A stretch of DNA of 37,288 bases from Mycobacteriales bacterium. GTDB taxonomy: Bacteria; Actinomycetota; Actinomycetes; Mycobacteriales; CADCTP01. Below, in pieces: positions 8,001 to 19,921 of this stretch (position 1 is its first letter; every line of letters begins with the position of its first letter). The stretch is from positions 1 through 37,288 of the forward strand of contig DASYKU010000016.1 in the NCBI GenBank assembly GCA_035995165.1, in the 5' to 3' direction. Both the position numbers and the translations under genes were made by a program. The notes under the pieces are model-generated. The model saw only the letters and a program-made list of their open reading frames with translations. It was not told the DNA's origin and did not search any database.

Positions 8001-8960
8001 ATGACTCGATGGGCACCGGTGGCTGCGGCCGCGGGAGTCGTGGTGGTGCTGGGCGCGGCGGTGGCGGTGGTGGCGACCCACGGCGGCGGGAGCACGCAGT
8101 CGGCGGCAGCCGCGCCGAGCGCCACCCCCACCCCTGCCCTCGCCGGTCTCCGGGTCCGTGACGGCGACCTCGTGACCGCCGCCGGCACGGTGCTCGCCGC
8201 GCCGGGGAAGCCGGTGCGGTTCTGCGCCCCGACCGCGAGTGCCCTGCCCGGCATTCCCGGCCCCGAGCAGCCGCCGGGCTGCTCCCCCGCGGTGACGCTG
8301 GTCGGTGCGGACGTGTCCCGGCTGGCCGACCAGAAGGCGTACCGGGGGACGCGCTGGGGTCAGGCCCGCATCACCGGCCGGTACGGGCACGGCACGATCA
8401 CCGTGACCGACCAGGGCGTCCGCGGCACGGAGCCGGCCGTGCCGGAGACCAGCCGGCCGTTCACGCCGCCCTGCCCGGCCCCGACCGGGGGCTGGCAGCC
8501 GGGCCTGCTCGGCCGGAGCGGCCTGGACGCGCTGGACAGCGTGATCCAGCACCACCCCGGCACGTACGGGGACGTGTCCGTCACCTATCCCGGCGGCCTG
8601 CCGGCCGGCATCACCACCTCGCCCCTGCCCGCCGGCACCACCCAGGTCGCGATGGTCACGACGACGCTCGATCCGGCGACGGCCGAGACGGCGCTGCGGG
8701 TGCACTACGCCGGCAACCTCTGCGTCGTCCGGACCCGGCACAGCCGGGCCGACACCGACGCCGTCTGGCGCAAGCTCAGCCCCGAGAACGGCACCGGCGA
8801 CCTCTGGCGCCGGTACGGCGTCTTCCAGGGCGGTCCGGACTACTTCGCCGGCCAGGCCCGGATCATGCTCATGGTGCTGGACGACGCCGCGTACCGGTGG
8901 CTGGACGGGGTCGGCGGCGCGATGGTCGAGGCCCAGCCGTGGCTGCGGCGGGTGGGCTAG
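8001..8960 (+). CDS. secreted or membrane-anchored protein of unknown function
   Basis: This 319-residue protein starts at ATG 8001 with GGAGG six bases upstream. One hydrophobic helix (about residues 5-28) follows a short N terminus, then a Ser/Thr/Ala/Pro linker, so the rest is probably outside the cytoplasm. There is no lipobox cysteine. Four cysteines in the outer part (in RFCAP, PPGCSP, TPPCPAP and NLCVVR) could form two disulfides. No domain is recognised. It is the only plus-strand gene in a minus-strand core block. Its stop overlaps that of the convergent rnj through the shared CTAG at 8957-8960. Confidence 0.85.
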   Translation: MTRWAPVAAAAGVVVVLGAAVAVVATHGGGSTQSAAAAPSATPTPALAGLRVRDGDLVTAAGTVLAAPGKPVRFCAPTASALPGIPGPEQPPGCSPAVTLVGADVSRLADQKAYRGTRWGQARITGRYGHGTITVTDQGVRGTEPAVPETSRPFTPPCPAPTGGWQPGLLGRSGLDALDSVIQHHPGTYGDVSVTYPGGLPAGITTSPLPAGTTQVAMVTTTLDPATAETALRVHYAGNLCVVRTRHSRADTDAVWRKLSPENGTGDLWRRYGVFQGGPDYFAGQARIMLMVLDDAAYRWLDGVGGAMVEAQPWLRRVG

Positions 8961-10645
8961 ACCTCGATCACGGTCGGGATGATCATCGGCCGGCGCCGGT
9001 ATCGGTCGGACACCCAGCGCCCGACCACCCGGCGCACGCTCTGCGCCAGCCGGTGCGGGTCGGTCGCGCCCTCGGCGGTGACCCGCTCCAGCTCGGCCAC
9101 CACCAGCGACAGCACCGGGTCGAACGCGACCGGGTCGTCGCTGAAGCCGCGGCCGGAGACGATCGGGGTGCCGCTGACCTTGCCGGTGACCGAGTCGACC
9201 ACCACGGTGATCGCGATGAAGCCCTCGTCGCCGAGGATCCGGCGGTCCTTGAGCGACTCCTCGCCGACGTCGCCGACCGCGAGGCCGTCGACGTACACGA
9301 AGCCGCAGTCGACCTTGCCGGTGATCGAGGCGACCCCGTCGATCAGGTCCACCACGGTCCCGTCCTCGGCCAGCACGACCCGGTCGGCCGGCACCCCGGT
9401 CAGCCCGGCGAGCTTGGCGTGCGCCCGCAGGTGCCGCCACTCGCCGTGCACCGGCATGAGGTTGCGCGGCTTGGTCGCGTTGAGCAGATAGAGCAGCTCG
9501 CCGGCCGGGGCGTGCCCGGAGACGTGCACCATCGCGACTTCCTTGTGCACGACCTGGGCACCCTCCCGGGCCAGCCCGTTGATCACCCGGTAGACCGCGG
9601 TCTCGTTCCCCGGCACCAGCGAGGACGCCAGGATGACGGTGTCGTCCGGCTCGATGCGGACCGACGGGTGCTCCCGGTTGGCCATCCGGGCCAGCGCCGA
9701 GAGCGGCTCGCCCTGGGAACCGGTGGAGATCAGCACGACCTTGTCCGGCGCCATCGCCGCGGCCTCGTCCAGCGTCACCATCAGCCCCGGCGGCACGTGC
9801 AGCAGGCCGAGGTCGCGGGCCACACCCATGTTGCGGACCATCGAGCGGCCGACGAACGCGACCGACCGGCCGTGCGCGGCGGCCGAGTCCAGCACTTGCT
9901 GGACCCGGTGCACGTGCGAGGCGAAACAGGCCACGATGACCCGCCGGGTGGCCCCGCGGATCACCGAGTCGAGCACCGGGCCGATGTTGCGCTCGGAGGT
10001 GACGAACCCGGGCACCTCGGCGTTGGTCGAGTCCGAGAGCAGCAGGTCGACGCCCTCGGTGCCGAGCCGGGCGAACCCGCCCAGGTCGGTCAGCCGCCCG
10101 TCCAGCGGCAGCTGGTCCATCTTGAAGTCGCCGGTGTGCAGCGCGGTCCCGGCGTCGGTCCGGATCGCCACCGCGAGCGCGTCCGGGATCGAGTGGTTGA
10201 CCGCGAAGAACTCGCACTCGAACGGCCCGAGCTGCTCCCGCTGCCCCGCCGCCACGGTCAGCGTGTAGGGCTCGATGCGGTGCTCGCGCAGCTTCGCCTC
10301 GACCAGCGCGAGCGTGAACCGGGAGCCGATCAGCGGCAGGTCCCGCTTCTCCCGCAGCAGGTACGGCACCCCGCCGATGTGGTCCTCGTGCCCGTGCGTG
10401 AGCACCACCGCCTCGACCAGGTCGAGCCGGTCCCGGATCCACCCGAAATCGGGCAGGATCAGGTCGACGCCGGGCTGGTCCTCCTCCGGGAACAGCACCC
10501 CGCAGTCGACGATCAGCAGCCGGCCGGCGTGCTCGAAGACGGTCATGTTGCGGCCGATCTCACCGAGACCGCCGAGCGCGACGACCCGCAGGCCGCCGGC
10601 GGGCAGCGCCGGAGGCGCGCCCACGTCATGATTCTGACGACTCAC
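8957..10645 (-). CDS. rnj: ribonuclease J
   Basis: This beta-CASP metallo-beta-lactamase RNase has 5'-exonuclease and endonuclease activity in RNA maturation and decay. In the 562-residue protein the zinc motif HGHEDH is at residues 84-89. The later conserved parts include HTGDFKMDQ, the beta-CASP region with VACFASHVHRVQQ, and MVHVSGHAPAGE. The start is GTG 10643-10645. It follows dapA by 35 bases on the same strand, an arrangement common in actinobacteria. Confidence 0.95.
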   Translation of the reverse strand: MSRQNHDVGAPPALPAGGLRVVALGGLGEIGRNMTVFEHAGRLLIVDCGVLFPEEDQPGVDLILPDFGWIRDRLDLVEAVVLTHGHEDHIGGVPYLLREKRDLPLIGSRFTLALVEAKLREHRIEPYTLTVAAGQREQLGPFECEFFAVNHSIPDALAVAIRTDAGTALHTGDFKMDQLPLDGRLTDLGGFARLGTEGVDLLLSDSTNAEVPGFVTSERNIGPVLDSVIRGATRRVIVACFASHVHRVQQVLDSAAAHGRSVAFVGRSMVRNMGVARDLGLLHVPPGLMVTLDEAAAMAPDKVVLISTGSQGEPLSALARMANREHPSVRIEPDDTVILASSLVPGNETAVYRVINGLAREGAQVVHKEVAMVHVSGHAPAGELLYLLNATKPRNLMPVHGEWRHLRAHAKLAGLTGVPADRVVLAEDGTVVDLIDGVASITGKVDCGFVYVDGLAVGDVGEESLKDRRILGDEGFIAITVVVDSVTGKVSGTPIVSGRGFSDDPVAFDPVLSLVVAELERVTAEGATDPHRLAQSVRRVVGRWVSDRYRRRPMIIPTVIEV

Positions 10646-10680
10646 TCTGCTCCTAGCTGTGGTGCGAGCTGTCCGCCCGC

Positions 10681-11580
10681 TCAGATGTCCACGTGTGCGG
10701 CGGCGAGGTCGGCCCGCAGGGTCTCGATCTCCGCCTCGGTGGCGTCGACCAGCGGCAGCCGTACGGGGCCGCCGGGCTGCCCAGCCAGCCGCAGCGCGGC
10801 CTTGGTCAGGATCGCGCCCTGGGTCCGGAAGAAGCCGGTGTACGCCGGCAGCAGCGCCCGGTGCAGCGCCAGCGCGCCGGCCACGTCGCCCTTCCCGTAC
10901 GCCTCGATCATGTCCTTGGTGCGCGCGCCGACCAGGTGGGTCGGCACGCCGACCACGCCGATCGCGCCGATCGACAGCAGCGGGAGCGTGACCTTGTCGT
11001 CACCGGAGTAGTACGCCAGGGGCGTGCGGGCCATCACCCAGGCGCTGGCGTCGAAGTCGCCCTTGGCGTCCTTGACCGCGACGATCCGCGGGTGCTCGGC
11101 CAGCGCGACCAGCGTCTCGGTCCGGATCGCACTGCCGGTCCGGCCGGGGATGTCGTAGAGCATCGCGGGCAGGCCGGTCGCGTCCGCGGCCGCCCGGAAG
11201 TGCGCCAGCAGGCCCGCCTGCGGCGGCTTGCTGTAGTACGGGGTGACCAGCAGCACGCCGTCCGCGCCGGCCTTCTCCGCGGCGGCGGCCAGGTGCAGCG
11301 TGTGCGCGGTGTCGTTGGTGCCGGCGCCGGCGATGACCGAGGCCCGATCGCCGACCGCCTCCACGACCGCCCGCAGCAGCCGGTCCTTCTCCTCGTCGCT
11401 GGTCGTCGGCGACTCACCGGTGGTACCGCTGATCACCAGCCCGTCGTTGCGCTGCTCGTCCACCAGGTAGGTGGCCAGCCGCTGCGCGCCGTCGACGTCG
11501 AGCGACCCGTCCGTGGTGAACGGCGTGACCATCGCGGTCACCAGGCGGCCGAACGGCCGCGCCTCATCCGGCTGCCTCAT
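10681..11580 (-). CDS. dapA: 4-hydroxy-tetrahydrodipicolinate synthase
   Basis: It condenses pyruvate with aspartate semialdehyde, the first step of the diaminopimelate/lysine branch that feeds peptidoglycan. Seen: GTTGES phosphate/carboxylate loop near residue 52, the Tyr of MLYDIPGRTG near 142, and the Schiff-base Lys in IVAVKDAKGD near 170. Length is normal (299 residues). ATG 11578-11580 is used; GTG 11584-11586 two codons earlier has a slightly better-placed GAG. It lies 24 bases after thyX and before rnj. dapB, its pathway partner, is about 23 kb away at 34,808-35,575. Confidence 0.94.
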   Translation of the reverse strand: MRQPDEARPFGRLVTAMVTPFTTDGSLDVDGAQRLATYLVDEQRNDGLVISGTTGESPTTSDEEKDRLLRAVVEAVGDRASVIAGAGTNDTAHTLHLAAAAEKAGADGVLLVTPYYSKPPQAGLLAHFRAAADATGLPAMLYDIPGRTGSAIRTETLVALAEHPRIVAVKDAKGDFDASAWVMARTPLAYYSGDDKVTLPLLSIGAIGVVGVPTHLVGARTKDMIEAYGKGDVAGALALHRALLPAYTGFFRTQGAILTKAALRLAGQPGGPVRLPLVDATEAEIETLRADLAAAHVDI

Positions 11581-11604
11581 GGCCACAAACTACTCGGTGC
11601 GGGC

Positions 11605-12357
11605 TCATCCCTCGCTGACGAGGGGGCTGCTGGCGACCTCGGTGCCGTCGTCGAGGGCGGCGATGGCGAAGTCCGCGAACGCGTTCGGCGCGACCCGCTG
11701 CAGCTCCCGCAGGCAGGCCACGGCCAGCTCGCGGATCTCGACGTCGGCGTGCTCGGTCGCCCGCATCGCGACGAAGTGCCGCCAGGCCCGGTAGTTGCCG
11801 GTGACGACGATCTTGGTCTCGGTCGCGTTCGGCAGCACCGCGCGGGCCGCCTGCCGGGCCTGCTTGCGCCGCAGCGTCGCGTTGCCGACGTCCGCGAACC
11901 GCTTCTCCAGCCCCTCCAGCAGGGCCGTGTACGCGGCCAGCGACGCCTCGGTGGCCTCGACGAACTTCGCGTGCAGCTCCGGGTCGCCGGCGATCACGTC
12001 CGGCTCGACCATGGCCGCGTCCCGCTCCGGGACGTAGCGCTGGGACAGCTGCGAGTACGAGAAGTGCCGGTGCCGGATGAGCTCGTGGGTCAGCGACCGG
12101 GACACGCCGGTGAGGTAGAAGGTGACCGAGCCGTGCTCCAGCACGGACAGGTGCCCGACCTCGAGGATGTGCCGCAGGTAGCCGGCGTTGGTCGCGGTCC
12201 GCGGGTTGGGCTTGGTCCAGGACTGGTAGCAGGCCCGCCCGGCGAACTCGGCCAGCGCCTCGCCGCCGTCCGCATCGGTCGTCCAGGGCACCTCGGACGG
12301 GGGCTCGAAGTGCGTCCAGGCGATCGCCCGGACTCCCAGCGGCTCGATCGAGGGCAT
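11605..12357 (-). CDS. thyX: flavin-dependent thymidylate synthase
   Basis: It makes dTMP from dUMP using FAD, NADPH and methylene-tetrahydrofolate. The ThyX motif RHRx7Sx(R) is complete at residues 95-108 ([14 protein letters not shown]). Length (250 residues) is normal, with an ATG at 12355-12357. It sits directly upstream of dapA on the same strand; dapB-thyX-dapA is a common actinobacterial order, here interrupted between dapB and thyX. Ten bases separate it from the upstream GH36 gene, so read-through from that gene is possible. Confidence 0.95.
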
Positions 12358-12367
12358 GGCGCCGAGA

Positions 12368-13687
12368 CTAACCCGGGAACGGGACCGGTGGCGGCACCGT
12401 CGCCAGCGTGCGGCGGGTCGTCTCCAGGCCCCAGTCGTCCAGCGCGGCCAGCCGGTCGGAGGACCCGCGCAGCCCGCCGTACCGGGCCACGTGCTCCGCC
12501 CAGTCCTCCCGCCGCTCCACCTCCGGCCGGGCCACCAGGCAGTCCGGGTCGTTCACCCAGAACCGCCCCTGCTGGTACGCCCGGGCCACCCCGTTCATCG
12601 TCGCCGTCCGCTGCGAGGGCTGCGTCATGTCGCCGCGCTCGGGCTCGTAGTGCAGCGCGATGTCGGCGCCGATCCGCATCCCGTCGACCAGCCCGATCGA
12701 GGGCAGGATCGGCGCCCCGCAGCCCAGCACGTACGCGTCCCCGACCGCGGCCCGGATCGCCGACACCCCCTGCCGGTACGCCTGCACCGGGGTCAGGCCG
12801 GGGTCGTGCCGGGCCCCGGGCAGGGCCGCGCCGTAGACGAAGTCGATCTTGAAGAAGTCGAAGCCGAGGCCGCGGAGGGTGCTGAAGACCTCGGTCAGCC
12901 AGGCCAGCGCGGCCGGGTGGGTGGCGTCCACCCCGTACAGGTCCTGGTCCCAGTTGTGGCCGGCGGAGGCGCCGCCGACGGCCCAGTCCGGGTGCTCGCG
13001 CAGGGTGGCCGAGCGGGCGCCGAGCAGGAACGGCGCGACCCAGATGCCGGCCCGCCGGCCCCGGTCCCTGATCCGCGCGGCCAGGTCGGCCAGCGAGTCG
13101 AACCGGTCCGAGAGCGTGAGCCAGTCGCCGATCTCGCTCTGGTAGCCGTCGTCGAGCTGGACCACCTCGACCGGCAGCTCCAGCCGGTCCATCGCGTCCA
13201 GGTTCTCGATCATGTCGGCCTCGGTGACCTGGGTGAAGTAGTGGTACCAGGAGCACCAGATCCTCGGCGCCGGCCGGATCGGCCCGATCCCCGCGTACCT
13301 CCCGGCCCACTCCCCCAGCGCGCCCTGCAGCCCGCCGGCGTGCGTCGTCTCCAGCACCGGGCCGTCGGCGCTGACCACGACCCGGTCGCCGTGCACCGCG
13401 GCCCGGATCTCCGGCACCGCGACCGTCCGGTCCGCGGCGGCCCAGACCCGGACGGCGCCGCCGTCGCCCGGATCCAGCGCGAGCAGCCCCGCTCCGGAGA
13501 AGCCGTCCGGCAGCCCGGCCGGGTCCTGGTAGTTCATCGCCCGGAACTGCGGGGCGGCGCTGCGCCAGGGCCGGTCCTGCAGCCGGTACGCCGTGGTCGG
13601 CGTCCACGACTGCCAGCCCTCCTCGTGCAGCAGCGCCCGGTCGGGATCGACCGGAACCTCGGCCAGCTCGGTGAATGTCCGCGGCAT
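12368..13687 (-). CDS. GH36-family glycoside hydrolase, probable alpha-galactosidase
   Basis: The protein (439 residues from ATG 13685-13687, with GGAAG nine bases upstream) has a beta-sandwich N-terminal part and a TIM barrel from about residue 140 ([13 protein letters not shown]). The nucleophile is expected at D282 in FFKIDFVYG. The acid/base is expected in DGMRIGAD (D342). The pair VVQLDDGYQ and IWVAPF are typical of GH36/GH27 retaining alpha-galactosidases. There is no signal peptide, so it should act on imported galactosides such as raffinose or melibiose. It is shorter than classic ~700-residue GH36 enzymes. The nearby alpha-glucoside importer may supply substrate (inference). Confidence 0.82.
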
Positions 13688-13714
13688 GGGCAAAGGCTTC
13701 CACACGCCGGCCGG

Positions 13715-14311
13715 TCAACAGCCCCGCAGCAGGGTCAGCGGTCCGAGCCAGCGGTAGTTGCGGCCCTCCCAGTCCAGCGAGAGTTGCAGCGCCGGCCCGG
13801 AGTCGGTGAACAGCACGTCGGTGACGAGCACGAAGAGGTGGTGGTAGTCGGCGTTGCGCCCGTCGGTGTCGGGCTTCAGCTCGATGGAGAACCGGGACAG
13901 GTCGGGGCAGTAGCGGCCGAGCACGAGCCCGGCGGCCTGCCGGGCCGTGACCGCGGTGGGAGCGGCCATCGCCGGCAGCGGGCCGGAGAGCAGGTCCCCG
14001 GTCTGGGCCGGGGCCGGGATCGGGGTCCGCCCGGGCAGCCGGTCGAACGTCTCGGCCGGCGGCAGCGGCGTCTCCGGCGCGGCCGCGGGGCGCGGGGCGG
14101 GCACGGGCCGGCTCACGTCGGCGGTGAACCGCAGCAGCGCCAGCACGACGATCGCGACCAGCACACCGATCCCGGCCCGCACGCCCCGCCGCCGCCAGTA
14201 CGGCGCCAGCCGCCGGCCGACCGGAGCGAGCCACCGTCCGAGCGGGGTCAGCCGCCGCCGGAGCCCGGCCGCCCGCCGCGGCCGGCGCGGGCCGGAGGAC
14301 AGCAGGTCCAC
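13715..14311 (-). CDS. single-pass membrane protein, paralogue of 14584-15108
   Basis: This 198-residue protein begins GTG (VDLLSSGP) and has an Arg-rich cytoplasmic stretch, a TM helix (~44-61), a Pro/Ala linker and an outer C-terminal domain. The positive-inside rule puts the C-terminal domain outside. It matches the 14584-15108 product in RxPGRTPIxAP, LVLGR(Y/F)C, PALxLxLDWxGRxYRWxGP and the terminal LLRGC. Both proteins keep two cysteines (C135 and the last residue C198), so a disulfide is likely. No known family is recognised. It is 27 bases upstream of the GH36 gene on the same strand. Confidence 0.8.
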   Translation of the reverse strand: MDLLSSGPRRPRRAAGLRRRLTPLGRWLAPVGRRLAPYWRRRGVRAGIGVLVAIVVLALLRFTADVSRPVPAPRPAAAPETPLPPAETFDRLPGRTPIPAPAQTGDLLSGPLPAMAAPTAVTARQAAGLVLGRYCPDLSRFSIELKPDTDGRNADYHHLFVLVTDVLFTDSGPALQLSLDWEGRNYRWLGPLTLLRGC

Positions 14312-14381
14312 CGGTCAGGCCGGGCCGGTGCGGGTCGTCGCCATCACGCCAGGCTGTCACATCCGCGGGTACGCTGCCGCC

Positions 14382-14582
14382 ATGGCCGAGCCCCGCAAGC
14401 GGAACGTGCGCTGGGGCCTGCTCTCCCTGCTGTTCCTGCTGATCGCGCTGATCTGCATCCTGGTCTCCAGCGGCCAGGGCACGTACAACGCGGTCACGCT
14501 GACCGGGCTCGTGGTCGGCTTCGTCGGCGCCGGCTACTGCACCTGGAAGGGCATCAGGGGCTTCAGCTGGCTCCCCCGCTGA
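14382..14582 (+). CDS. 66-residue membrane protein with two TM helices
   Basis: ATG 14382 opens a 66-residue frame with a basic start (AEPRKRNVRW), two hydrophobic helices (about 11-30 and 38-54) and a short basic tail ending SWLPR. Third positions are nearly all G/C. It is divergent from the 13715-14311 gene and convergent with the 14584-15108 gene, whose stop lies one base beyond its own. So it is framed by two paralogues on the opposite strand. Function unknown. Confidence 0.75.
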   Translation: MAEPRKRNVRWGLLSLLFLLIALICILVSSGQGTYNAVTLTGLVVGFVGAGYCTWKGIRGFSWLPR

Positions 14583-14583
14583 C

Positions 14584-15108
14584 TCAACAGCCTCGCAGGA
14601 GCTCCGCCGGTCCGGTCCAGCGGTACTCGCGGCCGGTCCAGTCCAGCGCCAGCCGCAGCGCCGGGTCGGTCCCGCCCCGCTCCAACCGGAACAGCAGCAC
14701 CGTGACGTGCCGCCAGTCCCCGGCCCGCCCGACCCCCTCCGGCCCGAGCGTGTACGCGTAGGCGGCCGGCTCCAGGCAGAACCGCCCCAGCACCAGGTCG
14801 ACCGCCCGCACCGCGGCGGTCCGGGCCGGCGGCCCGGTCGCCGGCAGCCCGCCGGACAGCGACGCCCCGGACCGGACCGGCGCTGCGATCGGCGTCCGCC
14901 CCGGCCGCCGGTCGTACGGCGGGGTCGGCACCGGGGCCGCCGCCGCCACCGTACGGTCCACTGAGGACGGTGATCTGTCCGAAGTGGACCTCACCAGCAG
15001 CAGGGCGACGGCCGCCCCGAGGACGGCCGCCGCCACACGTACGCTGCGCCGTCGCCAGATCCGGACGGCCCGGTTCGGCCGCTCCGGACCTGAGGACAGC
15101 AGGTCCAC
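14584..15108 (-). CDS. single-pass membrane protein, paralogue of 13715-14311
   Basis: This 174-residue protein starts at GTG 15106-15108, eight bases after the ABC permease stop, so it is probably the last gene of the importer operon. It has the same plan as its paralogue: VDLLSSGP, Arg-rich segment, TM helix (~24-40), Ala/Pro linker, and an outer domain with LVLGRFC (C111) and the terminal LLRGC (C174). The first 17-18 bases of the two genes are also nearly identical, although this lies at the start codon and may reflect shared ancestry only. No family is recognised. Confidence 0.78.
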   Translation of the reverse strand: MDLLSSGPERPNRAVRIWRRRSVRVAAAVLGAAVALLLVRSTSDRSPSSVDRTVAAAAPVPTPPYDRRPGRTPIAAPVRSGASLSGGLPATGPPARTAAVRAVDLVLGRFCLEPAAYAYTLGPEGVGRAGDWRHVTVLLFRLERGGTDPALRLALDWTGREYRWTGPAELLRGC

Positions 15109-15116
15109 CGAGGGGA

Positions 15117-16031
15117 TCAGCCCTTGACGGAGCCCGCGGTGAGCCCGCGGACGAAGTACCGCTGCAGGGACAGGAACACGACCAGCGGGATCACCATCGA
15201 CAGGAACGCGCCGGCGGTGAGCAGCTGCCAGCCCTGGTTCTGCTGCCCGATGAGGCCCTGCACCTGGAGCGTGAGCGTCCCGTTCTCGCCCGGGCCGAGG
15301 AAGATCAGCGCCACCAGCAGGTCGTTCCAGGTCCAGAGGAACTGGAAGATCGCGAACGACGCCAGCGCCGGCACCGACATCGGCACGATCAGCCGCCAGA
15401 ACGTCTGGAAGTGGCTGGCGCCGTCGATCTTCGCCGACTCGATCACCCCGAGGGGCAGCGTCGACATGTAGTTGCGCAACAGGAAGATCGCCAGCGGCAT
15501 GCCGAACCCGATGTGGGCCAGCCAGACCGCCGGGAACGTGCCGGTCAGCCCGAGCGAGCCGTAGATCTTCAGCAGCGGCACGAACGAGACCTGGTTCGGC
15601 ACCACGATCAGCGCCACGATGATGATGAATATGGTGTCCCGGAACGGGAACCTCATGAACGTGAACGCGTACGCGGCGAAGGCCGCGATCATCACCGGGA
15701 TGATGGTCGCCGGCAGGCTGACCGCGAGGCTGTTGAGGAACGCGTTCCCGCCGCCCTCCCGGAGCACCTGGCTGTAGTTGGTGAACGTCCAGTTGCTGAA
15801 CGGCTTCGTGATGACCGTCCACCAGCCGGAGTCGTTCGCCGCGTCCTGGGTGCGGAAGGAGGTGATGAGCAGCCCCAGCGTCGGGATGATCCAGAGGGCG
15901 CAGACCACGACCATCGTGATGCGGACGCCCCAGCCGGCCCGGCTGGCGACCGGGGCGGTGTCGGTCCTACGCGGGAACGCCCGGCCGAGTCGGCCCGGCC
16001 CCTCGACGGGAGGGGTGATGGTGCTGGTCAT
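15117..16031 (-). CDS. carbohydrate ABC transporter permease (AglG/MalG type)
   Basis: This 304-residue inner-membrane permease has six predicted helices. The ATPase-contacting EAA loop is ESAKIDGASHFQTFWRLIVP, and the C terminus YFVRGLTAGSVKG is characteristic of MalG-type subunits. ATG 16029-16031 overlaps the partner permease stop by four bases. No ATP-binding subunit is encoded here; a shared MsiK/MalK-like ATPase elsewhere is the usual actinobacterial solution (established for Streptomyces, inferred here). Confidence 0.93.
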   Translation of the reverse strand: MTSTITPPVEGPGRLGRAFPRRTDTAPVASRAGWGVRITMVVVCALWIIPTLGLLITSFRTQDAANDSGWWTVITKPFSNWTFTNYSQVLREGGGNAFLNSLAVSLPATIIPVMIAAFAAYAFTFMRFPFRDTIFIIIVALIVVPNQVSFVPLLKIYGSLGLTGTFPAVWLAHIGFGMPLAIFLLRNYMSTLPLGVIESAKIDGASHFQTFWRLIVPMSVPALASFAIFQFLWTWNDLLVALIFLGPGENGTLTLQVQGLIGQQNQGWQLLTAGAFLSMVIPLVVFLSLQRYFVRGLTAGSVKG

Positions 16032-17008
16032 CGCGCCGCCTCCTGGGCCCGGAAGTTCCGTACCTGATAGACCATCAGCGGGATGATCGCGATCACGAGG
16101 ATCACCACGATGGTGGCCGCCCGGCCTTGGTTGCCGTTGGTGATGAGCTCGTTGATGAAGCGGACGGCGACCACGTTGGTGTTGAAGTTGCCGCCGGTCA
16201 TCACGTACACGATGTCGAAGATCTTCATCACGTTGATCAGCGTGGTCACGAAGACCGTGATCACCGTGCCCCAGATCTGCGGGACCACGATGCGGAAGAA
16301 GACCTGCCGCTCCTTGGCCCCGTCGATGCGCGCGGCTTCCAGCGTCTCGTCCGGGACGCCCTTGATGGCCGCGGACAGCAGCACCATCGAGAACCCGACC
16401 TGGCTCCAGATCAGCACGACCATGAGCAGGAACGTGTTCGTCTTGCCGGTGCTCAGCTGCAGCCAGGCCACCGGGTCGTGGCCGAGCTTGGTGACGACGG
16501 CGTTGAGCAGCCCGATCTGGGGCTCGCCGGCCGGGCGGACCTCGTAGATGAACCGCCAGATCGCGGCCAGGGCCACGCCGCTGACCGCCATCGGCAGGAA
16601 GATCAGCGTCTTCGCCGTCTGCTCGCCCCGCGGCGCCAGCCGGTCGGCCAGCGTCGCGACCGCGAGCCCGAGCGCGACCACGACCGCCGGGGCGATCAGG
16701 ATCCAGAGCAGCGTGTTGACCAGCGTGATCTGGAAGTCCCGCTGGGACAGGAGGTCCGTGTAGTTCTTGAAGCCGACCCAGGCGCTGCTGGTGTTGTTGG
16801 CGAAGCTGTAGATGATCGTCTGGATCAGCGGATACACGAGGTAGAGGCCGAGCGCGGCGACCGCGGGGAGGATGTAGAAGTACGGCTTGACCCGGTCCTC
16901 CCACCGCGCCGGCAGCCGTTCAGCGATGAAGTTGAGCAGCCAGTACAGCACCAGCGCGCCGCCCACACCGCCGACGATCGCCAGCAGCGTGTTGATCACT
17001 TTGACCAC
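16028..17008 (-). CDS. carbohydrate ABC transporter permease (AglF/MalF type)
   Basis: This 326-residue permease has an extra N-terminal membrane helix (~5-28) before the usual six, as in AglF-type alpha-glucoside permeases. Its EAA loop is LEAARIDGAKERQVFFRIVVP. GTG 17006-17008 has a strong GAAAGGAG about nine bases upstream. It lies between the binding protein gene and the second permease; a perfect hairpin sits between it and the binding protein gene. Confidence 0.93.
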   Translation of the reverse strand: MVKVINTLLAIVGGVGGALVLYWLLNFIAERLPARWEDRVKPYFYILPAVAALGLYLVYPLIQTIIYSFANNTSSAWVGFKNYTDLLSQRDFQITLVNTLLWILIAPAVVVALGLAVATLADRLAPRGEQTAKTLIFLPMAVSGVALAAIWRFIYEVRPAGEPQIGLLNAVVTKLGHDPVAWLQLSTGKTNTFLLMVVLIWSQVGFSMVLLSAAIKGVPDETLEAARIDGAKERQVFFRIVVPQIWGTVITVFVTTLINVMKIFDIVYVMTGGNFNTNVVAVRFINELITNGNQGRAATIVVILVIAIIPLMVYQVRNFRAQEAAR

Positions 17009-17084: not shown

Positions 17085-18401
17085 TCAGCTCGGCCAGCTC
17101 TGCTGGATGCTGGTCAAGGCCTGGTCCAGCGTCTGCTGCCCGCTGATCCAGGCGGTCATGCCCTTCCAGAACGAACCGGAGCCGACGGCGCCGGGCATCT
17201 GGTCGGACCCGTCGAAGCGGAACACCGTGGCCTTGTTGCCGATGTCGGCCATCTGCCGGGTCAGGTTCGACGTGTACTTGCTGACGTCGTAGTCCTTGCG
17301 CGGCGACAGGAAGCCGTCGGAGTCCTTCCAGCCCGGGAAGTCCGGACCGGTCATGAACGCCATGACCTTCTTGGTGTCGTCGTCCTTGCCGTTGAACACC
17401 GCGGCCAGGTCACCGCCGCCGAGCACCGGCTTGGTGTTCGCGTCCTCGCCCGGGAAGTAGAAGACGCCGACCTGGTTGTCGATGTCGGCGACGATGTTCT
17501 TCGGGAAGAACCCGGACTGGGTGATGAAGTTGCCCTGCTTGAGCATCATGCAGCCCGGCTTCGCGTTGAACATCGGGTTCCCCGCGGTCGCGAAGTTCGT
17601 GCTCACGGCGCCCTTGGTGCCACCGAGGACGTTGCCGTTGGCCAGCACGAGGTTCTGGAAATTCGTCGCGGCCGTCTTCACCGACGGGTCGTTGAACGGG
17701 ATCGCGTGCGAGACCCACTTGTCGTAGGTCTCCGGGCCGGCGCTCCGGAGCATCTCGTCCTCGACCCAGTCGGTGGCCGGCCAGCCGGTCGCCGAGCCCG
17801 ACTCGATGCCGAGGCACCACGGGGTGGTGCCGGCGGCCTTGATCTGGTTGGTCAGCGTGGTCAGCTCGGCCTGCGTGGTCGGGACCTTGTAGCCCGCCGC
17901 GTCCCAGGCCTTCTTCGGGTAGAAGACCAGGCTCTTGACGTTGTACGAGATCGGCACGCCGTAGAACTTGTCGCCGACCTTGCCCGCGTCGAGCACGCCC
18001 GAGATGAGCTGCGACTGGAGCTGGTTCACGTCCAGCTGCGTCGACAGGTCCGTCATCTTGTTCTGGGCGACGAAGTCCTTGAGGATGCCGGGCTGCGGGA
18101 ACAGCGCGATGTCCGGCACGTTGTTCGCCTGCACCCGGGTCCGGATCAGAGTGTCGAAGGACTGCGACGCCTCCGTGAACTTGACCTTGATCCCGGAGGT
18201 CTTCTCCCACTCCGTGAACGCCGCCTGAAAGCCCTTGGACTGCGCGCCACCGAAGCCGAAGATGATCTCGACGTTGCCGTCGCCGGCCTTCGTGCCGCTG
18301 CTCCCGCCGCTGCTGCTTCCGCTACTGCTCAGACACGCCGACGCCGCCAGGGCAACCGCCGCCGCCAGAGCCACCTGCTGGATGGCCTTCCGCCTGCCCA
18401 T
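17085..18401 (-). CDS. alpha-glucoside-type ABC transporter substrate-binding lipoprotein (AglE-like)
   Basis: This 438-residue extracytoplasmic solute-binding protein has a lipoprotein signal peptide: MGRRK, a hydrophobic stretch, and lipobox ASAC with the lipidated cysteine at C23, followed by a Ser/Gly linker. The fold part includes VEIIFGFGGAQSKGFQAAFT and the ETYDKWVSHAIPF region typical of AglE-like proteins. ATG 18399-18401 has AGGAG five bases upstream. It is the first gene of the importer operon. The divergent LacI regulator and amylosucrase point to sucrose or a related alpha-glucoside as ligand (inference). Confidence 0.92.
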   Translation of the reverse strand: MGRRKAIQQVALAAAVALAASACLSSSGSSSGGSSGTKAGDGNVEIIFGFGGAQSKGFQAAFTEWEKTSGIKVKFTEASQSFDTLIRTRVQANNVPDIALFPQPGILKDFVAQNKMTDLSTQLDVNQLQSQLISGVLDAGKVGDKFYGVPISYNVKSLVFYPKKAWDAAGYKVPTTQAELTTLTNQIKAAGTTPWCLGIESGSATGWPATDWVEDEMLRSAGPETYDKWVSHAIPFNDPSVKTAATNFQNLVLANGNVLGGTKGAVSTNFATAGNPMFNAKPGCMMLKQGNFITQSGFFPKNIVADIDNQVGVFYFPGEDANTKPVLGGGDLAAVFNGKDDDTKKVMAFMTGPDFPGWKDSDGFLSPRKDYDVSKYTSNLTRQMADIGNKATVFRFDGSDQMPGAVGSGSFWKGMTAWISGQQTLDQALTSIQQSWPS

Positions 18402-18859: not shown

Positions 18860-19921
18860 ATGGGCGCACCACCGTCCGTCAACGGGCAGGCCGGCATCCT
18901 CGACGTGGCGCGCCGGGCGGGCGTGTCCGCCTCGACCGTGTCCCGGTCGCTACGCGGCTCGGCCAAGGTGTCGGAACCGACCCGGGAGCGGGTGCTGCGC
19001 GCTGCCGCCGAGCTGGAGTACGTGCCCTCGCCGGCCGCGTCCCGGCTCGCCTCCGGCCGGACGCACGCGATCGGGGTCATCGTCCCGTTCGCCACCCGGT
19101 GGTTCTTCTCCGAGGTCCTCACGGGCGTGGAGGGCCCGCTGCGGGAGGCCGGCTACGACCTGCTGCTCTACAACGTCGGCGACCCCGAGGGCCGCAACCG
19201 CTTCTTCGGCACGATGCCGCTGCGCCGGCGGGTGGACGCGGTGCTCGCGGTGGCCTCGTCGCTGGACCCGGCCGAGCAGACCGCGCTGCAGGCGCTGGGC
19301 GTGCCGCTGGCCGTGATCGGCGGTCCCGTCGACGGTTTCGCCCGGGTCGGCGTGGACGACCGGGCCGGCGCGGTGATGGCCGTACGGCACCTGGTCCTGC
19401 TCGGGCACCGCGACATCGTCATGATCAGCGGCGAGCCCTCGGACCCGGTCGGGCGGTCCACCACCGCGGCCCGGCGGGAGGGCTTCGAGGCCGCGCTGGG
19501 GGAGGCCGGTATCCCGGTCGGGCCGGACCGGGTGGTACCCGAGCCCTGGGGCGTCACCGGCGGGATGCGGGCGGCCGAGCAGCTGCTGGCCGGGCGCCGG
19601 CTGCCGACCGCGATCTTCGCCGAGTCCGACGAGATGGCGCTGGGCGCGCTGCAGGTGCTGCGCCGGGCCGGGCTGGCGGTGCCCGGGCGGGTGTCGCTGA
19701 TCGGGTTCGACGACCACGAGATGGCCCCGGCCGGCGAGCTGACCACGATCGCGCAGCCGGTCCGCCGGCAGGGCGAGCTGGCCGCCCGCCGGCTGCTGGC
19801 CGTGCTGGCCGGGGACGGGGACGGCATCGCCATGGACCTGGTGCTGCCGACCCGGCTGGTGGTGCGCGGCACGACCGGTCCGCCCCCACCGGACACCGGC
19901 GGCGGCAGCGCTTTCGCATAA
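18860..19921 (+). CDS. LacI-family transcriptional regulator
   Basis: This 353-residue regulator has an N-terminal LacI HTH (AGILDVARRAGVSASTVSRS, residues ~11-31), a hinge helix (SPAASRLASGRTHAIGVIVP) and a periplasmic-binding-like sugar domain to ~335. GAGGAGG lies six bases before ATG 18860. It is divergent from the importer operon and nine bases upstream of the amylosucrase gene. It probably represses both in the absence of an alpha-glucoside (inference from context). Its exact sugar is unknown. Confidence 0.93.
   Translation: MGAPPSVNGQAGILDVARRAGVSASTVSRSLRGSAKVSEPTRERVLRAAAELEYVPSPAASRLASGRTHAIGVIVPFATRWFFSEVLTGVEGPLREAGYDLLLYNVGDPEGRNRFFGTMPLRRRVDAVLAVASSLDPAEQTALQALGVPLAVIGGPVDGFARVGVDDRAGAVMAVRHLVLLGHRDIVMISGEPSDPVGRSTTAARREGFEAALGEAGIPVGPDRVVPEPWGVTGGMRAAEQLLAGRRLPTAIFAESDEMALGALQVLRRAGLAVPGRVSLIGFDDHEMAPAGELTTIAQPVRRQGELAARRLLAVLAGDGDGIAMDLVLPTRLVVRGTTGPPPPDTGGGSAFA

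Follow-up and report, generated by a model that had tools for sequence, protein, structure and literature searches.

Two paralogous, predicted membrane-anchored proteins in a sugar-type operon appear to represent a rare actinobacterial family

The paralogous pair and its operon

What do two related membrane proteins of no named family do between the genes for a sugar-type importer and a glycosidase? The question is raised by a 37,288-nucleotide stretch of DNA from a Mycobacteriales bacterium, which is called the window here. The two genes, A and B, lie on its minus strand in the order binding protein, two permeases, B, A, glycosidase, thyX, dapA and RNase J (Table 1). The original prediction had placed one gene directly behind an ABC permease and the other directly before an alpha-galactosidase, and this arrangement was borne out: 8 bases separate the permease stop from the start of B, and 9 bases separate the stop of A from the glycosidase gene. 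The name given to the enzyme held in part. Its product matches Melibiase at 43.5 bits (cut-off 27) and also Glyco_hydro_31 at 35.6 bits (cut-off 23.5), and its substrate is putative. The solute-binding protein had no Pfam match, and its NCBIfam score against TIGR03850, at 49.9 bits, is far below the cut-off of 299. A LacI-type regulator gene and an alpha-amylase-family gene run in the opposite direction from position 18860.

A and B sit inside a sugar-type operon in the window genome. Judged by gene spacing, it is plausible that they are co-expressed with this operon in this one genome. B and A are separated by a 272-base stretch that holds an opposite-strand gene, so A may be driven by a promoter of its own. 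The sugar operon also seems to be joined onto the front of a housekeeping operon. The genes of the latter (thyX, dapA and RNase J, 8957-12357) start 10 bases past the glycosidase gene on the same strand.

We regard A and B as clear paralogues, because BLASTP aligned them end to end (42% identity, E 3e-37) and because their alignment score of 371 was reached by none of 500 shuffles of B, the shuffle maximum being 75. Every motif that had been claimed as common to the pair (VDLLSSGP, RTPIxAP, LVLGR(Y/F)C, LDWxGRxYRWxGP and LLRGC) was found in this alignment, as were the two invariant cysteines, of which the second is the last residue of each protein. Codon-position GC is coding-like, with third-position values of 0.96 for A, 0.91 for B and 0.985 for the small gene between them. 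A cannot start earlier than the GTG at 14311, since the second codon upstream is an in-frame TGA, and the start of B at 15108 is backed by the N-terminus that the two proteins have in common; the N-terminus of one distant homologue reads MPDDILSS. Inspection of the upstream bases found no clear Shine-Dalgarno sequence at the usual distance before either GTG. Across the two start codons (14290-14315 and 15088-15112), 19 bases are identical: CGGTGGACCTGCTGTCCTC.

The 66-residue protein encoded between A and B had been described as a two-helix protein on the other strand. Its position and length are as claimed; its hydropathy profile consists of one strong and one weaker stretch. A single base separates the end of the gene from that of B, and 70 bases lie between its start and that of A. 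The protein is an orphan, which at E 1e-4 matched in 1 of the 101 genomes searched, namely its own, and we found nothing that links its work to A or B. Residues 17-55 resemble DUF2530 (PF10745), also a short protein, at E 0.0028, but the score of 18.3 bits is below the Pfam cut-off of 25.5 and we rejected this identity.

Table 1. Features of the window at and around genes A and B
Feature	Position	Strand	Description and basis
Gene A (P0001)	13715-14311	-	GTG start, 198 aa, single-helix membrane protein, Cys as last residue
Transmembrane helix of A	14120..14191 (residues 41-64)	-	AlphaFold helix 41-64
Outer domain of A	13718..14014 (residues 100-198)	-	AlphaFold and profile A5 coverage; E-E-H-E-E-E-E-H, Cys135 and Cys198
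Gene B (P0002)	14584-15108	-	GTG start, 174 aa, paralogue of A, Cys as last residue
Hydrophobic stretch (membrane helix) of B	14986..15042 (residues 23-41)	-	Hydropathy 1.94
Outer domain of B	14587..14883 (residues 76-174)	-	Alignment with A; Cys111 and Cys174
66-aa hydrophobic protein	14382..14582	+	ORF, third-position GC 0.985, hydropathy
Glycosidase directly after A	12368..13705	-	Melibiase / GH31-like (Pfam)
ABC permease directly before B	15117..16025	-	BPD_transp_1 (Pfam)
Second ABC permease	16028..17008	-	Pfam
Solute-binding protein	17085..18401	-	Weak similarity to carbohydrate binders

Members and distribution of the family

The claim that A and B fall into no known family agrees with our searches, in which no Pfam family matched A or B and no NCBIfam family matched any of six members. 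Two Pfam matches of members were rejected: Metal_resist for P0007 (E 0.0064, 17.1 bits against a cut-off of 29.2) and FUSC_2 for one member (E 0.18). With A as a single query, we obtained two relatives with matching C-terminal ends, both in the genome G024 (E 1.6e-13 and 5.9e-10). A four-row profile of A, B and these two copies (C228 and C94) yielded one new member each in G013 (E 1.4e-8) and G053 (E 2.5e-8), neither of which was in the profile. The members known are six: A, B, G024:C228, G024:C94 and the proteins of G013 and G053.

At E 0.001, the family was found in 4 of 397 genomes of the order, the own genome included, which gives four homologues in three other genomes; A and B are the only accepted copies in their own. 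The best 11-15 candidates were scored per genome in the large runs (11 in the 397-genome profile search), so members may be missed. The same four genomes, all of them rows of the profile, stood out when up to 77 candidates were scored per genome in 61 genomes. Nine of the 15 member pairs were tested, and all scored above every one of 500 shuffles. A six-row tree grouped the two G024 copies firmly (100/99) and placed A and B nearest each other by path, in a grouping without firm support.

No member beyond the own genome was accepted from a class sample of 296 genomes, in which the matches in G439, G617 and G135 were partial. Family-level searches near G024 (1 of 2 genomes) and G053 (1 of 5) gave no new members. 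No relative was detected in two pattern scans of genome_contigs, in viral contigs, in plasmids and phages searched with A, or among PDB sequences, where one chance match had an E value of 0.18. The second genome of the genus contains a partial match with an internal stop (E 7.6e-4), which is invisible to the profile. Judged by their sequences, A and B are members of an unnamed family that occurs rarely within this actinobacterial order. The family thus defined is small, lies outside Pfam and NCBIfam and carries an easily testable mark, two paired cysteines with one at the very end; the value of this finding is chiefly one of annotation.

Weaker matches were examined and dropped. A search with A at E 0.01 matched 52 of 298 genomes, of which we kept the two (the own genome and G024) that matched the C-terminal end. 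The other 50 (E 5.9e-7 to 0.01) gave partial matches, mostly over the membrane helix and the proline-rich part, and none of them is among the four genomes found by the profile, the overlap of the two samples not being certain for all 50. In the 61-genome profile search, 12 genomes reached the 0.05 limit; four, with strong matches, were the profile's own rows, and the remaining eight had partial matches (0.004-0.05). A third match in the own genome (E 0.047) has an internal stop. We read 42 weak-match loci to the next stop: the third own-genome match, loci from 28 genomes out of the 50 that had been dropped, the 10 partial matches in the eight genomes of the profile search and 3 from the class sample. 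None of these loci contained the C...W-Y-W...C end, which was present in both of the true-member controls. Weak loci from G007, G060, G439 and L006 were additionally read by eye. The L006 protein, which likewise has a transmembrane and a proline-rich part, matched A over these parts (residues 37-139, E 5.9e-7); it was rejected as a member because the match ends before the conserved C-terminal end and the frame lacks the W-x-Y-x-W...C end. This mycobacterial-type protein is similar to Rv3587c, beside a carbonic anhydrase gene.

Conserved residues and predicted structure

All six members have one N-terminal hydrophobic stretch, a proline-rich linker and an outer domain of roughly 100 residues. 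Common to all as well are a W-x4-Y-x-W hairpin together with the one N-terminal membrane helix, and a cysteine after a helix paired with a second at the last or next-to-last residue. Identical in every member (A numbering) are C135, C198, W181, Y186, W188 and L195, and further invariant residues are G110, L112, P113, P118 and A123. Five members have exactly two cysteines, both past the membrane stretch, and G024:C94 has one extra inside the stretch. Lysine and arginine outnumber aspartate and glutamate before the hydrophobic stretch in all six, with a surplus of just a single residue in three; in A, 14 K/R against 1 D/E precede the transmembrane helix, and hydropathy peaks at 2.37 in the scoring interval that starts at residue 46. 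The terminal Arg-Gly-Cys singled out in the original prediction is present in A and B but is not a mark of the family: in all four other members one residue follows the second cysteine, and the residues preceding it differ. Because of this additional residue, we dropped the idea that the C-terminal cysteine serves prenylation or sorting.

AlphaFold models of A and of the distant G024:C228 member (overall pLDDT 73 each) agree on an E-E-H-E-E-E-E-H outer domain, although both were built on the same six sequences and are not fully independent. By block, pLDDT in the model of A is 71 for residues 91-100 and 82-95 from residue 101 on; over the outer domain of the G024:C228 model it is 78-97. Membrane anchoring with an outer domain, as originally proposed, fits these models and the hydropathy of the members. 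The predicted topology of A and B would place a short basic N-terminus in the cytoplasm, followed by one membrane helix and a proline-rich linker, and the compact alpha/beta domain of the predicted fold would lie outside the membrane. From the conservation and placement of the cysteines we infer one disulfide, most likely between the helix-end cysteine (135 in A, 111 in B) and the one at the extreme C-terminus. We consider this anatomy, in which a disulfide closes the anchored outer domain, highly probable.

Fold comparisons gave no match that stands out. Foldseek returned no row at E 0.001 or better for either model; the best PDB values were 0.17 for the A model and 0.041 for the G024 model, and the best row of the viral library was an uncharacterised siphovirus protein (E 0.007, TM 0.23/0.29). 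The best Z scores among the folds that VIA-align listed were 6.1 and 6.0, respectively. Among others, the fold bears a likeness to the Mog1/PsbP-like group, which includes PsbP, Mog1, DcrB, EagT6 and Apa. PsbP (2vu4), likewise a small alpha/beta domain, reached Z 5.4 with the A model (3.2 Å, 82 aligned) and Z 5.8 with the G024 model (3.5 Å, 89 aligned), DcrB (6e8a) reached 5.1 and 5.7, and Mog1 (1eq6) reached 5.0 and 5.5. Since unrelated rows such as PptT and tRNA synthetases tie with these at Z 5-6, we left the family out of this group. YycI-type proteins are PepSY-like, anchored regulators of a histidine kinase and, as in A, combine a single membrane helix with an outer alpha/beta domain. 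YycI (2o3o) was the top Foldseek row for the A model, at a non-significant E of 0.17, and 2o3o_K scored Z 5.1 with the G024 model. The Pfam matches of the members, from which weak matches can be filtered out, included no PepSY model.

Gene neighbourhoods and possible roles

The explanation that we tentatively favour is that A and B are disulfide-locked, membrane-anchored accessory proteins of the envelope, of which two copies lie in a sugar operon here. The anchored domain would use the conserved face of the W-x4-Y-x-W hairpin to bind either a small ligand or another protein as its partner. As no fold match stands out, it is conservation that suggests binding, and it makes this aromatic hairpin the best candidate contact face. 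The proteins would probably have no enzymatic centre of their own, judging from family models; no enzyme family was over its cut-off among the Pfam and NCBIfam matches of the members. A and B are probably made together with the importer in this genome, and the importer need not be their partner. Any specific named role merits much less confidence than the anatomy.

Of the four homologues elsewhere, three (G024:C228, G013 and G053) lie a short way before a conserved gene for an alpha/beta hydrolase. The member in G024:C228 and the one in G013 are found between acs and a Phage_holin_3_6-type gene, followed by the hydrolase; acs was identified by AMP-binding and ACAS_N domains in G024 and, in G013, by a match of 40 residues where the contig ends. 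Next to the hydrolase, both genomes have a gene that combines Colicin_V and Trypsin_2 domains, as mycobacterial MarP does. MarP is reported to confer acid resistance in vitro (PMC4985559). Such neighbourhoods speak for an alternative in which the family has an envelope or acid-stress role in the acs-holin-hydrolase-marP region, a job that the window copies would have kept after coming from another place. The own genome, unlike G024 and G013, has acs, the holin-like gene and the hydrolase adjacent with no member between them (contig C94, L051 2467-5967), as expected if the gene moved. However, the hydrolase was matched in 61 of 61 genomes searched, and a pattern search found a member no more than 1.5 kb upstream at only 3 of the 30 loci read from them (1 of 30 with a stricter first pattern), which argues that the family is not part of the core of this region. 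In G053, moreover, the member follows a polysaccharide deacetylase gene directly before the hydrolase, and the 12.5 kb contig yielded no acs and no holin-like gene. Gene position by itself also tells little about function, and we judge this alternative unlikely.

The fourth homologue, G024:C94 (L043), lies beside a cytochrome b gene, and its contig stops about 345 bases upstream. Genes for a ROK regulator and a GH66 protein are found at a distance of about 4.7-8 kb, followed at about 8.6-14 kb by an ABC operon of the oligopeptide type.

The locus of A and B itself invites a different alternative, in which the two proteins serve the adjacent sugar importer as its own accessory or sensor subunits and touch its binding protein or permeases outside the membrane. 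The spacing speaks for it: 8 bases lie between the permease stop and B, and 9 between A and the glycosidase gene, with all these genes on one strand. Against this, none of the four homologues elsewhere is seen beside a sugar importer, G024:C94 having been read on one side only. The window glycosidase was matched at E 1e-60 in 6 of 150 genomes, its own included, and none of the five other loci (6.5-11 kb read in each) contained a family member, although two of them have ABC permease genes nearby. Both samples are thin, and on their evidence we think a role as importer subunits distinctly improbable.

The same two counts speak against a general role in sugar uptake or sensing, which had been called conceivable for these proteins. 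The closest that any homologue comes to a link with sugar genes is G024:C94, from which such genes are kilobases away. Because the few known relatives are not seen beside sugar importers, sugar uptake is unlikely to be the general job of the family, and as far as the evidence goes the connection with sugar genes is peculiar to the locus of A and B. Their place in the operon of a single genome hinted at a function that the positions of the relatives fail to support.

Alternatively, a local duplication might have left A and B as selfish or decaying passengers whose function, if any, is not tied to their neighbours. This would suit the sporadic distribution (4 of 397 genomes) and the interrupted partial match in the second genome of the genus, but is very improbable given the strong coding signature of A and B, the cysteines and W-Y-W that even deeply diverged members retain, and the lack of relatives in the plasmids, phages and viral contigs searched.

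A bolder reading, to which we give little credence, is that the family forms a new class of disulfide-locked anchored adaptors that report envelope state or tune different membrane machines. Such adaptors would have been enlisted successively at the acs-hydrolase-marP region, beside a cytochrome b gene and, as the two copies described here, for a sugar importer.

Two smaller observations concern the loci of the homologues. Third-position GC is lower in G024:C94 than in G024:C228 of the same assembly, so the former contig might derive from another organism in an assembly of mixed origin. In G053, the polysaccharide deacetylase gene (L038 203-1267) overlaps the start of the member by four bases.
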